Made by a program: the position numbers and the translations under genes. Below, one piece after another: positions 16,448-22,597 of a stretch of DNA of 44,633 nucleotides. The notes beneath the pieces are model-generated. The model was not told the DNA's origin and did not search any database. It saw only the letters and a program-made list of their open reading frames with translations. The stretch's first letter is position 1. Every line of letters starts with the position of its first letter. Location of the stretch: the NCBI GenBank assembly GCA_030656075.1, contig JAUSOT010000021.1, forward strand, positions 1-44,633, read 5' to 3'. Origin of the DNA: Candidatus Cloacimonadales bacterium. GTDB taxonomy: Bacteria; Cloacimonadota; Cloacimonadia; Cloacimonadales; TCS61.

Positions 16448-17737
16448 TTAAATAAAATCTCCATTCAGGATTTCTTCAATTTCTATATCTTCGGCTTCTG
16501 CTTTTTCAGTTTCCCCCAGCAAACGGTAGGCTTTTTCGAGTGTAATATGCGGCCTTAAATAAATCGGATCATACTTGATCGCCTCATTGCAGATTGTCAC
16601 AACTTTCTGATATTCATTTTTCTCCATATAATAATCTGCCAGAATGGTAAGGCTGAGAGCATTGTCTGGTTCCAGTTCAACTGCTTTCCGAATATCTTCA
16701 AAAGCCTGCTGATGTTTGTTCAGCTTTGTGGCAGCTTCGGCGCGGCAAAAATAGGCATAACCGTTGTCGGGATCATATTCCAGGCTATTATCGCAATCCA
16801 GCAGAGCTTTTTCAAATTGTTCCAGTTCCATGTAGTAATTAGAACGAATTGTGTAGTAAAATGCCGGATTATCGGCGAGTGAGATTGCTTCCGATAGGGC
16901 TTGAACTGCTTCATTATAAAGATTCTGTTTTGCCATTATCCTGCCTTTCATATAATAGGCATAATCATCATCAGGATCGATCTGCAGCGCTTTTCCCAGA
17001 TAGAATTTTGCCGAAAGAAATTCTTCCTTTTCGTTCATAACTTCTGCGATGTTCAGGAAGGCATCATTATTATCAGGTTCGATTTTCAGCAATTCAAAAT
17101 TGTATTTCAGAATTTTTTCCGGATCTTCCCATTCATCCGGTCTCTGCTTCCAGCCGCTTTCCGGCAGGAATTTATCCATCGTATCAGCTCCTACAGGAGC
17201 GACAGTTTTTATGTTTCCTTCTTTGGAAAGATAATCATCCAGAAATTCGGTAAAATTTTTATACAAAATTTCCCAATCTGAAATGGGGTCTTCATGAAAA
17301 GCATCGAAAACAGGCGATTCCAATTCCGCATTCAATGGTGCAGCAAAAACTAATAATTCCTGAATTGCCGTGCGGCCGAAGGGAATGATCGGATATACTC
17401 CATCCCATTCCAAGGGCATTTTCCAATTGCGGTCATTCAGGTCGATGTATTCATCATAAAGTTCTTCCAAACTAAAAATAACCAGGCTGTTCCACCTGGC
17501 AGTCTCGATATCATTATCTATTTTAATTTTGGCAGCGAGAAAGTTATTGCAGATGAAACCGCCGTTGAAGTTTTTGAGAAATTCACGATAAGACAAAGGC
17601 AGTTCAATTCCAAGAAGAAATTCCTTCCTGGCGATATCTTCTTCTTTGGCAGGAGGTTCGAAATGGAATTTTTCCGGATTCTCCTGTATTTTAGATTCCA
17701 GTTTTTTTAGAATGTTACTCAGATCGTTTTTTAACAA
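16448..17737 (-). CDS. SUKH (SMI1/KNR4) domain protein with TPR repeats
   Basis: 429 aa, no signal peptide. Residues about 15-170 have the SUKH pattern: PATEEDI-like PPAKEEDIARKEFLLGIELP, LPLSYREFLKNFNGG, and a later IIPFGR strand. After a linker, residues about 205-425 form tandem tetratricopeptide repeats with the regular PDN/PDD turns (KIEPDNNDAFLNIAEV, QIDPDDDYAYYMKGRI and so on). SUKH proteins include immunity proteins of contact-dependent toxins and regulatory proteins; TPRs bind partner proteins. No toxin gene is adjacent. A TTG start at 17737 is supported by AAAGGAG 10 bases upstream and no usable ATG nearby. Function is unknown. Confidence 0.82.
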   Translation of the reverse strand: MLKNDLSNILKKLESKIQENPEKFHFEPPAKEEDIARKEFLLGIELPLSYREFLKNFNGGFICNNFLAAKIKIDNDIETARWNSLVIFSLEELYDEYIDLNDRNWKMPLEWDGVYPIIPFGRTAIQELLVFAAPLNAELESPVFDAFHEDPISDWEILYKNFTEFLDDYLSKEGNIKTVAPVGADTMDKFLPESGWKQRPDEWEDPEKILKYNFELLKIEPDNNDAFLNIAEVMNEKEEFLSAKFYLGKALQIDPDDDYAYYMKGRIMAKQNLYNEAVQALSEAISLADNPAFYYTIRSNYYMELEQFEKALLDCDNSLEYDPDNGYAYFCRAEAATKLNKHQQAFEDIRKAVELEPDNALSLTILADYYMEKNEYQKVVTICNEAIKYDPIYLRPHITLEKAYRLLGETEKAEAEDIEIEEILNGDFI

Positions 17738-17986: not shown

Positions 17987-18235
17987 ATGAAAAAAGTTAT
18001 TGTCTTCAGCACACCAACCTGCTCCTGGTGCAGGAAAATTAAGAGTTATTTGAATGAAAATAAGATTAGATACACAGACATAGATGTATCTCGTGATGCT
18101 AAAGCAGCACGTGATATGGTTCGCAAAACCGGCCAGCAGGGAGTGCCGCAGATTTGGATAAACAATGTACCGGTGGTGGGATTTGATAAACAAAAGATCG
18201 ACAGACTTCTGAATTTAAACTTGGGGGAGAGATGA
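17987..18235 (+). CDS. Glutaredoxin-like protein
   Basis: 82 aa thiol-disulfide exchange protein, cytoplasmic (no signal peptide). The redox motif is Cys12-Ser-Trp-Cys15 in STPTCSWCRK; the cis-Pro is Pro54 in GVPQIWIN. This CxxC and the size resemble NrdH/YruB-type small glutaredoxins more than classical CPYC ones. AGGAG lies 8 bases before the ATG. The stop overlaps the start of the exported thioredoxin gene (ATGA), so the two are translationally coupled. The target protein is not deducible. Confidence 0.9.
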   Translation: MKKVIVFSTPTCSWCRKIKSYLNENKIRYTDIDVSRDAKAARDMVRKTGQQGVPQIWINNVPVVGFDKQKIDRLLNLNLGER

Positions 18236-18660
18236 AAAAAATATCTTTAATCGCGTTTGTGATGGTCATTTCGTTAGTTTTAACCGCTGCCGGTGAAAAT
18301 AAGGAATTGGAACATTTGAATTTGAATTCGTTCAAAGAGAAGGTTTTCGATTATGAAAATAATGCCGAATGGAAATATCTGGGAGATTTACCCGCTATTA
18401 TAGATTTTTATGCGGATTGGTGCGGACCCTGCAAACAGGTTGCTCCGATCATGGTGGAACTGGCAGAAGAATATGAAGGCAAACTGGTAATATATAAAAT
18501 CAATACAGACGAGCAAAGAGAATTAGCCGGCATGTTTGGAATTCGCAGTATTCCATCAATACTATTCATTCCAGTGGATGGACAACCGCAAATGGCAACC
18601 GGCGCTCTGCCTAAAAGTGAATTTGTGAAAATGATCAACGAAATTTTGAAGGTGGGATAA
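18232..18660 (+). CDS. Exported thioredoxin
   Basis: 142 aa with a signal peptide (MKKISLIAFVMVISLVLTAA) and a thioredoxin domain carrying the active site Trp-Cys64-Gly-Pro-Cys67 and cis-Pro108 (RSIPSILF). WCGPC is the motif of reducing thioredoxins, so the protein likely reduces disulfides in the periplasm, but a partner (DsbD/CcdA type) is needed to supply electrons and none is seen in the window. It overlaps the preceding glutaredoxin gene by four bases. GGGGGAGAG inside that gene serves as ribosome binding site. Confidence 0.9.
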   Translation: MKKISLIAFVMVISLVLTAAGENKELEHLNLNSFKEKVFDYENNAEWKYLGDLPAIIDFYADWCGPCKQVAPIMVELAEEYEGKLVIYKINTDEQRELAGMFGIRSIPSILFIPVDGQPQMATGALPKSEFVKMINEILKVG

Positions 18661-18783: not shown

Positions 18784-20658
18784 TCATTCCATAAAAACCA
18801 TATTGTTTATCGGGTTTTGGATTTCTAACACAAACTTTTTGAATTCCTGATATCTTTCGTTAGGAATCACACATTCAGGAATGTAGATATCTTTGGTTAA
18901 AATGATCTTCGTATCTTTCATGTCGGCCGCAAGCTTGGAATATGCCATTTTATCACCGATCTTGAATTCTATGATATCCTGAGCTTTATTCAAGAGCTGC
19001 ATTTTGTCTGCAGTTGCAAGTTGGTCATCCAATTCTATAATAAAATGCTGTTTTATGAATATCTTATTCGAAACCTGATAATCATTATCTCTTTTATCGA
19101 GAGTCACATCCAGACGGAAATCCGGTGAGATGAGTTTGAAATATTCATAAGGTTGCTGTTCAACCAGGAAATCTTCATATTGCAAAGTGTATGAAACTTT
19201 TAAATCTTCATCTATTTTATCATAATTGTGAAATATCGGACCTGCTAACAAAGTTGCCGATTTTTCACCTAAATATCGGATAAACCAAATTTTGCGTTGT
19301 GCTTCTGGCCAATCAAGAAACGAATCGCGCATCTGCTGATTGTATTTTCCTGAGTATAGAATTTCTACATCTACAGCAGCATCATTTTCATTCATATTGT
19401 ATTTGTAGGATTGAATTTTCTGAGCTTGAACCGGAGATTGATAATAAGTAAATTCATATTTATTGTTTCCGATGAGAATATTTGCTTCCTCCGCTCCAGC
19501 ATAAGCAAAAGGCATATAACTATTGCCGGCACAATACAAATTTCCCTGCCAATAAGTGCAGATATTGTCCATGAAATCCGCCACAGCAAATTTTTTCTGG
19601 ATTTTACCGAATCTGTCATTCGGGGAAAGGATTACGGCAGGATAAGCATCATCAATTCCTGCTTCATTCAGCATGGCAATAAACAGTGCTGTAAGTTCTC
19701 TTTCTGAACCGAATTTTTTTTGCCAAACTTCCATCATGGGCTCAGGTGTAAAATCAATTTGAGAAGTGTAAGCTTCTTTTTCATTGAAATTTTCTGCCAT
19801 AAACTTGTATATTTCCACTACTTTTTCGGTTTCATTTTGGCAATTCTCAGTGAGTTTTTTAGCCACTTCCGAAATTTCTGCATTTCCTTCTACATTTCGC
19901 AATTTGGCAAGTTTCTGTTCTGCCAGTTCCTGCCAGTTTTTATAAAAACTAAAGACGATCGGCGTTCCGGCTAACAGTAAAGATGGTGAATTATTCTCTT
20001 CTTTGTAAACCGGCGACTCGCTCACATGCCATGAATATATCCTGAAACTTCCTACTTTGCTTTTAGTGAATTCAACGTGATCATCATCACAGAAACTATT
20101 GAGTTTCAATTTTTTGGGAAACTTGATGCTGAATGTTTTGTGCAGGTAGGGATTGGATTCCCGCAGATGTTCCACACCGCTCACCGGCTCGCATCTATGG
20201 CTTGTTATGGTGTAATCCAGCACCACAAAGTAACCTGGCTCGATCTGGGGAAAATTGATGATCTTCTCTCGATTATTGATGTAATCCGGTGACTGAATCG
20301 ATTCGGTGTCATTCATGTCGTAGATCTGATTGGCGGGAATCTCAATTCGATTTCCTTCCGTATCGATGGTGAAGCAATTTCCTAACTCTATTTTTTCATA
20401 ATCACCATTATAGCTTATCTTTACATCAGAATAACGTCTAGTGCCTTTGTAGTTAAGAATTTTTTTTACGTAGAAAACATGATAATCATAGCTGAAATCT
20501 TCGGCAATATTCAATTCAATTTCGGTGAGTACATTAATGGCTGAAGCATCCGGATATTTGTCGATTCCTGCAATATCTTGAATGATGTCGTCAATACGGT
20601 CGGCAAAAATATTCAGGCAACAAACCAGAAATAGGAATGCAAGTATTCTTTTAATCAT
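18784..20658 (-). CDS. DUF3857/transglutaminase-like protein, predicted inactive
   Basis: 624 aa with signal peptide (MIKRILAFLFLVCCLNIFA). Overall layout matches the adjacent upstream paralogue: an N-terminal DUF3857-type domain (about 30-240), a transglutaminase-like domain (about 250-400) and a C-terminal beta-rich tail. The catalytic triad is absent: where the paralogue has GGVCRDKAALLTAML this protein has KFGSERELTALFIAML (Cys to Glu), the His position reads FMDNIC (Asn366), and the Asp position falls in YCAGNSYM (Ala/Gly). A strong GGAGGGG precedes the ATG at 20658, which overlaps the end of the upstream gene by 8 bases. A structural or regulatory partner of the active copy is likely. 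Exact biological role unknown. Confidence 0.85.
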   Translation of the reverse strand: MIKRILAFLFLVCCLNIFADRIDDIIQDIAGIDKYPDASAINVLTEIELNIAEDFSYDYHVFYVKKILNYKGTRRYSDVKISYNGDYEKIELGNCFTIDTEGNRIEIPANQIYDMNDTESIQSPDYINNREKIINFPQIEPGYFVVLDYTITSHRCEPVSGVEHLRESNPYLHKTFSIKFPKKLKLNSFCDDDHVEFTKSKVGSFRIYSWHVSESPVYKEENNSPSLLLAGTPIVFSFYKNWQELAEQKLAKLRNVEGNAEISEVAKKLTENCQNETEKVVEIYKFMAENFNEKEAYTSQIDFTPEPMMEVWQKKFGSERELTALFIAMLNEAGIDDAYPAVILSPNDRFGKIQKKFAVADFMDNICTYWQGNLYCAGNSYMPFAYAGAEEANILIGNNKYEFTYYQSPVQAQKIQSYKYNMNENDAAVDVEILYSGKYNQQMRDSFLDWPEAQRKIWFIRYLGEKSATLLAGPIFHNYDKIDEDLKVSYTLQYEDFLVEQQPYEYFKLISPDFRLDVTLDKRDNDYQVSNKIFIKQHFIIELDDQLATADKMQLLNKAQDIIEFKIGDKMAYSKLAADMKDTKIILTKDIYIPECVIPNERYQEFKKFVLEIQNPINNMVFME

Positions 20659-22597
20659 TTTCCCCTCCAATTTCAGCAATTATATATAAATTTTCATACT
20701 TCGTCAGATTTGCCAATCTCTGTTTGATCTCTTCAAATTGCTTTTGCTTAAAATGGATATTATTATTTTCAAAGTGGTAATTAAACATCATTTTATTGTC
20801 GTTGTGTTTGATAGATAAAGTGGTCTCAAAGCCTTCAAAATCTAATAATTCCAATTTAGGAATTGATGGATTTTCCAACTTTTCAGAAAATTCTATTTCA
20901 TAATCAATATCAAAACTGAAAGCTCCCATCAGTTGAAAATCATATTTTCTCTCGCTCAGATCAAATGGCATCATCATCCAGTTATAAACCATATTCAGGT
21001 TCAGACGGGAAGGTTCGAATGGAATGAAAATATTTTTGCCAAAAGTTGAGATATAATCATCGATCTTGATCTGGGCTGTGATCTTAAGGTTTTCTTCTTT
21101 ATTGGCAGGATCCACAAAATCGAAGCTGATAAGCTGACAATTGGGATGCAGGCTGCTAATAAATCCGGAGACGGTTTTATCAAATTCATACCGATTCAGT
21201 CTGGAAAGACGAGAGCGGATCACAGTATCCGAGAACCCGGAAAAGAAATATTCGATCGTACCGGTAGCATTATTATTCTCATCTATTCTTAATTGTATTT
21301 TAACGGTTGAATTATTCTTCAGCGGATCGGAAATGGGAATAGTTTTGAGGGTTACACCTTTTTTTGAAGCAATCAAATAGGAGTTATCTTCCTCATATTT
21401 GGGCAGGAAATCTTTGGTGTTCTCATCTGTAGGATCGAAAATAAATTCCGGTTCTCCATTTTCATCATACGAAACTGTGATTGCGTGATTGAACCACAAC
21501 ATCGGTGCTTCAAAATTTAGCCTGGAACCGGATGAGATCAGAATAACGTCAGAACCGATACCGGCTTCACGAAGCATTGCAGTGAGCAGCGCAGCTTTAT
21601 CACGGCACACACCACCACGAGTTTCAAAAGTATAAGTTACATCGTGCGGTTCAAAACCCGGCCGGTTTTTTTCTTTATCCACTCCCAGGTAGCGAACGCT
21701 ATGAGCAGCCCAGTAAAACAGTTTTGCAGCTTTTTCCTGACGGGAAGTAATCCCTTCTGTTAATTCCAAAACTTTGTTTTTGATCGCTTCATTTACTTTC
21801 ATGTGCGGTGCGACGATGTTGTAATACCAGCGGGAAATATCTTCCCAGCTTTCCACTGTGGTCATTTTTATCAGATGTGCATAGAAGTCTGAATTATCCA
21901 TATTCGGCTCATAAATGATCAAAGGATTGTTCTGTGTAGTCCATTTGTACGTGACGACCCCATCTTTTTCTATTCGGGAAAAATCAACCGGAAAATCAGA
22001 TTTATTCAATTCATGAATATACAATTTCTTGCTTGCAGGAATATTAATTTCAAGGTAATCGTTGATGTATTTTGTGTAAGTTTCCACATAAAAAGAGTTA
22101 AAGTAGTTCTCTTCCATAGTAGCTTTTTTTATGATATTTTTTTGTTTGGTAAAAATAATATCACCCACTTCCATATTAGGAATTTCAGCTGTGAGTATTT
22201 TGGAAGATTCAGAATAGATATTGCTCCAGCCCATGTAACTGTTATCCTTTTCCTGCAGGATTTCGTCTGGATTAAAAACGATTATTTCGCCGCTGGCTTT
22301 GATTAGTTCAATTGCTGAAATGTCGATGTCGCCATAATCCATATCATACCAGAAGGTTACGGCATTGTCTTTCTTGGCTCCGTCTGTCAGGATTTTTCTA
22401 TAAGATTCGGTAATCTCATCTCCCCTGCAATGCTCATCCAAAACTACTATTTCATTGGAAATATATACTTCATTGCAATCCGGATAATCGTCTGCTTTGG
22501 CCTGTTGAAGCATTTTGATGGCTTCGGTTTTTTCAACGTACTCTGCCGATAACAGTGATGCTATAAGCAGGAAAAGAAATAACAGATACTTTCTCAT
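20651..22597 (-). CDS. Exported DUF3857/transglutaminase family protein
   Basis: 648 aa, signal peptide (residues 1-18). It has an N-terminal DUF3857-type domain (about 50-240), a transglutaminase-like cysteine protease fold (about 260-400) with complete triad Cys331 (RGGVCRDKAAL), His371 (WFNHAITV) and Asp388 (FIFDPTDE), and a C-terminal tail of about 240 residues. Proteins of this architecture are common in Bacteroidetes-like genomes as periplasmic proteins of unknown substrate; both hydrolysis and crosslinking are possible. AGAGGA lies upstream of the ATG. It overlaps the downstream inactive paralogue and follows wecB by 15 bases, so the three genes may be one transcript. Confidence 0.9.
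   Translation of the reverse strand: MRKYLLFLFLLIASLLSAEYVEKTEAIKMLQQAKADDYPDCNEVYISNEIVVLDEHCRGDEITESYRKILTDGAKKDNAVTFWYDMDYGDIDISAIELIKASGEIIVFNPDEILQEKDNSYMGWSNIYSESSKILTAEIPNMEVGDIIFTKQKNIIKKATMEENYFNSFYVETYTKYINDYLEINIPASKKLYIHELNKSDFPVDFSRIEKDGVVTYKWTTQNNPLIIYEPNMDNSDFYAHLIKMTTVESWEDISRWYYNIVAPHMKVNEAIKNKVLELTEGITSRQEKAAKLFYWAAHSVRYLGVDKEKNRPGFEPHDVTYTFETRGGVCRDKAALLTAMLREAGIGSDVILISSGSRLNFEAPMLWFNHAITVSYDENGEPEFIFDPTDENTKDFLPKYEEDNSYLIASKKGVTLKTIPISDPLKNNSTVKIQLRIDENNNATGTIEYFFSGFSDTVIRSRLSRLNRYEFDKTVSGFISSLHPNCQLISFDFVDPANKEENLKITAQIKIDDYISTFGKNIFIPFEPSRLNLNMVYNWMMMPFDLSERKYDFQLMGAFSFDIDYEIEFSEKLENPSIPKLELLDFEGFETTLSIKHNDNKMMFNYHFENNNIHFKQKQFEEIKQRLANLTKYENLYIIAEIGGEND

Follow-up and report, generated by a model that had tools for sequence, protein, structure and literature searches.

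The 44,633-nucleotide contig JAUSOT010000021.1 of a Candidatus Cloacimonadales bacterium (assembly GCA_030656075.1), referred to here as the window, carries two overlapping genes, A and B, whose products share a DUF3857 domain followed by a transglutaminase-like core. A retains a Cys-His-Asp catalytic triad, and B has lost it. The two proteins probably constitute an ancient, obligate enzyme-pseudoenzyme unit of the cell envelope in which B would position the substrate of A or activate A. A working and a dead module recur adjacent or fused in many phyla, which implies that B has a job beside enzyme A. Lengths are in amino acids (aa), and the open reading frame (ORF) of B is counted from its ATG; a mechanical ORF finder starts it at an upstream TTG and gives 631 aa.

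20651-22597, reverse strand: gene A, DUF3857 and transglutaminase-like protein, 648 aa, intact Cys-His-Asp (ORF, Pfam)
21926-22417, reverse strand: DUF3857 domain of A, aa 61-224 (PF12969, E = 3.1e-11)
21434-21766, reverse strand: transglutaminase core of A, aa 278-388, up to the catalytic Asp (PF01841, E = 1.6e-10 over aa 278-348; His and Asp placed by alignment)
21605-21607, reverse strand: codon of catalytic Cys331 of A, in GGVCRDKAALL (alignment)
21485-21487, reverse strand: codon of catalytic His371 of A, in FNHA (alignment)
21434-21436, reverse strand: codon of catalytic Asp388 of A, in FDPT (alignment)
20662-20668, reverse strand: ribosome-binding-like GGAGGGG of gene B, within gene A and just upstream of the B ATG (by inspection)
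20651-20658, reverse strand: 8-base overlap of the A stop with the B start (sequence)
18784-20658, reverse strand: gene B, DUF3857 and transglutaminase-like pseudoenzyme, 624 aa, triad lost (ORF, Pfam, alignment, AlphaFold2)
20011-20499, reverse strand: DUF3857 domain of B, aa 54-216 (PF12969, E = 2.4e-23)
19651-19869, reverse strand: degenerate transglutaminase core of B, aa 264-336 (PF01841, E = 3.2e-6)
19702-19704, reverse strand: Glu319 of B, at the position of the nucleophile Cys of A (alignment)
19564-19566, reverse strand: Asn365 of B, at the His position (alignment)
19531-19533, reverse strand: Cys376 of B, at the Asp position (alignment)

Alignment to the families places both proteins above the Pfam gathering cut-offs for DUF3857 (PF12969; 44.0 bits for A and 83.5 bits for B, cut-off 24.6) and Transglut_core (PF01841; 41.7 and 27.8 bits, cut-off 23). 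B scores below the cut-off for DUF3858 (PF12970; 14.6 bits, E = 0.036, cut-off 27), and no NCBIfam matches were obtained. A and B are distant relatives (21% identity, E = 5e-8) and are the only DUF3857 genes found in the genome. A first-pass annotation made from the sequence had assigned Cys331, His371 and Asp388 to the upstream protein, and the alignment places all three in A; the 8-base overlap that it reported is present as ATGATTAA at 20658-20651. Its Glu and Asn at the first two triad sites of B were correct. The Ala/Gly that it gave for the third is one residue off: the site holds Cys376, followed by Ala-Gly. The His-site counterpart is Asn365, or the adjacent Asp364 if the gap is placed otherwise, and the Asp-site residue varies among relatives (Ile, Ser, Tyr, Arg, Val or Leu).

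B is not a decaying copy. Its frame is unbroken in seven close relatives, and relatives in other genomes are 60-66% identical. The ratios of nonsynonymous to synonymous substitution (dN/dS), calculated for close relatives where dS is unsaturated, are 0.09-0.15 for B versus 0.08-0.13 for A. The AlphaFold2 model of the window B is a complete and confident fold (predicted local distance difference test score, pLDDT, 87.2; predicted TM-score, pTM, 0.81). These data agree with the first-pass statement that the fold framework and length are kept (624 versus 648 aa), and they correct its term "decayed paralogue", which would suggest a recent local event: B is under purifying selection, and the A/B split appears old. 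Recent duplication followed by decay is ruled out by these two observations and the 21% identity. The loss of all three catalytic residues could also be read as the mark of a decaying pseudogene or of a sequencing or assembly artefact. That explanation is refuted by the open 624-aa frame and its 60-66% identical relatives, by dN/dS of about 0.1, by the 81/81 unselected units that have the pair, and by the solved structure of a homologue (PDB 3kd4).

The alignment was used to compare the catalytic positions across the family. The triad is kept in 112/112 A modules and present in 0/112 B modules. The Cys position in B is occupied by 13 other residues, mostly Ser, Pro, Thr, Asn and Glu. An intact alternative triad in B was looked for and none was found: the 112 distinct B modules share no conserved Cys, His or Ser, and the positions that are conserved are mainly Gly, Pro, Tyr, Glu and Arg. 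A substitute triad that includes Cys376 at the Asp site is ruled out on the same ground. It is barely credible that B is still an enzyme, its active site having migrated to a different place. B does retain the helix that bears the nucleophile in A, and some B proteins (L131, L134 and L140) keep the His and Asp without the Cys, but the variable Cys position and the lack of any conserved candidate residue contradict that idea.

Two surveys define the distribution of the pair. In the unselected set, units were found by DUF3857 matches or homology with catalytic residues ignored, and complete A-first units were counted. The first member has the full Cys-His-Asp triad and the second is Cys-less in 81/81 units, comprising 19 Cloacimonadota pairs, 43 WOR-3/Calditrichota tandem pairs and 19 fused Verrucomicrobiota proteins; in three of the WOR-3 second modules the motif is unalignable and no Cys is present there. 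Two loci of this survey lie outside the 81, one with the order reversed (L290) and one with the pair cut by a contig end (L294). The second survey scanned named genomes with a pattern that demanded the Cys motif in the first module. This motif-selected scan returned 80 loci: 31 complete tandem pairs (Cloacimonadota, WOR-3, TA06, Calditrichota, KSB1, Eisenbacteria, Effluviviacota and Holophagaceae), 47 fusions and 2 at a contig edge. The Cys is missing from 75 of its 77 informative second modules; the exceptions, L132 (9855-11849) and L145 (1589-3583), keep the Cys (GDCRDKN) and have the catalytic His replaced by Trp, another path to loss. Taxon labels of metagenome-assembled genomes are the depositors' own, and a few genomes may be misbinned (e.g., L141). 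The dead modules are thus neither sporadic nor degraded; they form a conserved lineage that travels with an active partner under purifying selection and is fused to it in bacteria of the Planctomycetota-Verrucomicrobiota-Chlamydiota (PVC) group. A residue signature for partnered enzymes, GVC rather than GDC before the nucleophile, fitted Verrucomicrobiota and Cloacimonadota and was abandoned because some WOR-3 pairs have GDCTDK or GDCKDM instead. One Cloacimonadota genome has a second, very divergent DUF3857 pair (L117, G096:C111) with Cys-His-Glu in the first member and Ser-Asn-Asp in the second, perhaps on a foreign contig in the bin.

The PVC fusions place both modules in one ORF of ~1,270 aa, with the active half first and the dead half second. 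The 47 fusion loci of the motif-selected scan come from Kiritimatiellota, Lentisphaerota, Verrucomicrobiota, Planctomycetota and FCPU426. In the Verrucomicrobiota phylum, fusion is the usual state of DUF3857: of 96 genomes sampled, 51 have the domain, and about 39 of these carry a two-domain ORF (counted by eye). These proteins favor a physical 1:1 unit. The coupled supply, the full fold kept in B, a catalytic loss confined to one of the two, and the co-presence of the modules where they are unlinked all fit a heterodimer with a non-catalytic subunit. A and B most likely pack together into a 1:1 heterodimer. A constant 1:1 supply and the fusions would be equally well accounted for if B were an inhibitor or zymogen-like guard that fills the active site of A until a signal or substrate frees it. 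Secreted cysteine peptidases are often kept inactive by partner domains. However, a module that inhibits an enzyme can usually be removed or does not resemble it, and B keeps the enzyme's complete fold and length. The model of the fused protein L175 (mean pLDDT 87.7) also joins its halves by a short, low-confidence linker of ~12 residues (600-611, the only stretch under 50). Inhibition is possible, though a module that stays fused for good is a less natural inhibitor; we regard the guard function as rather unlikely.

A tree was calculated without the catalytic columns. All B modules, together with the dead members of other pairs, fall on one side of a branch with Shimodaira-Hasegawa-like approximate likelihood ratio test (SH-aLRT) support of 94. 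Support is 96 for the A modules, 99 for the fused A halves and 99 for the fused B halves. The tree was made rapidly and some of its branches are long; it supports an apparently old A/B split followed by a single later fusion. The tree leaves the split undated; the split appears to be older than the phyla involved.

Several observations weigh against an obligate, physically joined unit. In the window's class, DUF3857 occurs in only 23 of 125 genomes, and the unit is dispensable there; nearly all of the positive genomes have one A-B pair, A first and on the same strand. The A-A and B-B distances of the tandem pairs correlate at 0.97, as expected for any co-inherited genes, and this correlation by itself is no proof of a unit. 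The fused L175 model has a pTM of 0.71 and no interface is claimed from it, which leaves the A-B contact an inferred one. No second module was found in the stretch surrounding three dead modules (L287-L289). Finally, the dead module precedes the active one in four loci (L218-L220 and L290), so the order of the genes as such carries no mechanistic meaning. L287, L288 and L289 may have partners encoded at another place, like those of the WOR-3 genomes G243 (L285/L286) and G256 (L282/L281), where a GVCRDK-type A and a dead module are both present at separate places. The active second modules of the four reversed loci are of the GDCKD type, and L218 (2419-8518) is a dead-active-dead triple; the reversed pairs are possibly independent recruitments of a dead partner.

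The enzyme-pseudoenzyme unit is proposed to work as follows. A would be a transglutaminase-fold cysteine enzyme (peptidase, amidase or transamidase), and B its dedicated non-catalytic partner. The two would be made from the overlapping genes, exported separately, and act outside the cytoplasm; in PVC bacteria both modules are part of a single polypeptide. We infer export from N termini that look signal-peptide-like when the ORFs are read by eye (MRKYLLFLFLLIASLLSA-EY and MIKRILAFLFLVCCLNIFA-DR), and these termini together with a DUF6263 lipoprotein neighbor in related loci point to the envelope. B may activate A by holding it in its active form, in analogy to prozymes, and may equally bind and position the substrate through its intact DUF3857 domain and empty transglutaminase cleft.

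Activation by a dead paralogue has been measured in trypanosomes, where the S-adenosylmethionine decarboxylase (AdoMetDC)-prozyme and deoxyhypusine synthase pairs need the dead partner for full activity (PMC5201418, PMC3663545). Like A and B, each is an active enzyme with a dead paralogue of the same fold. Unlike A and B, they have unrelated folds and belong to trypanosomatids, and activation is a measurement there and a proposal here. Two marks of a prozyme-type pair are found in the bacterial one: the active and dead homologues are conserved together (the 81/81 units and the fusions), and the dead partner is under selection. Inactive transglutaminase-fold proteins used for binding are known from eukaryotes (Rad4/XPC and EPB42, band 4.2; PMC10318531). 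Like B, they retain the fold and have lost the triad. That such proteins became binders on their own is compatible with B being an independent envelope binding or structural protein that shares an operon with A and makes no contact with it, as is the unlinked state of the two genes in G243 and G256. To our knowledge, neither Rad4/XPC nor EPB42 is paired with or fused to an active sister. Unless the two have a task in common, there is no easy explanation for PVC-wide covalent fusion or for the co-presence of unlinked genes, and independence of B is quite unlikely. The solo DUF3857 transglutaminase-like proteins (GDCKD motif) have the same two domains and Cys-His-Asp triad as A. They differ in that all 17 sampled from the Verrucomicrobiota phylum have the full triad and no second module in the surrounding stretch.

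A single DUF3857 structure was found in the PDB: 3kd4, which is BDI_1141 of Parabacteroides distasonis and was deposited as a "putative protease". It is the best PDB match to the window B model (Foldseek E = 1.4e-32) and has the same fold of DUF3857 plus transglutaminase-like core. The profile match to 3kd4 is 1.5e-33 for B and only 1.9e-5 for A. Over 505 residues, 3kd4 matches exactly the protein encoded by a P. distasonis gene located 13 bases behind an A-type gene. The A-type gene retains GVCKD, FNHC and DPT, and at the aligned triad positions 3kd4 has Pro, Thr and Ser for Cys, His and Asp. 3kd4 also has a DUF3858 tail, for which P. distasonis B scores 143 bits versus 14.6 for the window B. 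Read from its sequence, 3kd4 is a predicted dead B-type partner, a pseudoenzyme and not a protease. The pair exists in Bacteroidota too, on this one example; the tblastn search against plasmids was informative for P. distasonis only. No paper found in the open-access literature mentions the missing triad of 3kd4 or the neighboring A gene. The next fold matches to the window B model after 3kd4 are ribophorin I/OST1 and M1 aminopeptidases, probably via the DUF3857 beta-sandwich.

Dead transglutaminase folds in eukaryotes and the principle of a dead-paralogue partner are already known. No account of the bacterial A/B pair or the PVC fusions, and none that treats 3kd4 as a pseudoenzyme, was found in the open-access literature, a scope outside which most subscription journals fall, and one passing mention of DUF3857 was found there. 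The chances are evenly balanced that the pair represents an unrecognized, deeply conserved class of two-subunit envelope enzymes, with a transglutaminase-like catalytic subunit that needs its dead sister and is fused to it in PVC bacteria. Hardly any work exists on DUF3857 proteins, which are spread over many bacterial phyla, and the finding gives them an anatomy of an active plus a dead module. The function may be missed if only the catalytic gene is assayed or knocked out, and the PVC fusion offers a natural single-chain form for crystallization or assay. An orphan structure that has been in the PDB since 2009 under a protease label can be read as a pseudoenzyme. A dead partner kept over such distances, with its Cys variously replaced, is a clean natural case on the roles of dead enzymes.

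Neighboring genes were compared across the loci. There is no neighbor common to all loci, and functional assignment from conserved operon context was dropped on this ground; only a DUF6263 lipoprotein recurs (tandem loci up to L142). It lies beside the pair in 12 related loci, which belong to WOR-3 and a single Cloacimonadota family; in some cases two of these loci are the same genome. The DUF6263 (PF19777) protein is ~270 aa, lipoprotein-like, and above the cut-off in two loci, L118 and L124. No DUF6263 match was found in the window's genome.

L113, 7599-8438; L118, 6224-7078; L121, 1523-2386; L123, 6260-7093: DUF6263-type protein, directly or closely upstream of A
L124, 7148-7987; L125, 7148-7996; L126, 7181-7996; L129, 7126-7914: DUF6263-type protein, directly or closely upstream of A
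L138, 6394-7224: DUF6263-type protein, downstream of B

The DUF6263 protein is a possible third component. In the window, a thioredoxin with a signal-peptide-like N terminus is encoded beside gene B on the opposite strand (18232-18660, forward strand). A protein near the pair (16448-17737, reverse strand) combines an SMI1/KNR4 (SUKH-1) domain with tetratricopeptide (TPR) repeats, an immunity-protein-like combination.

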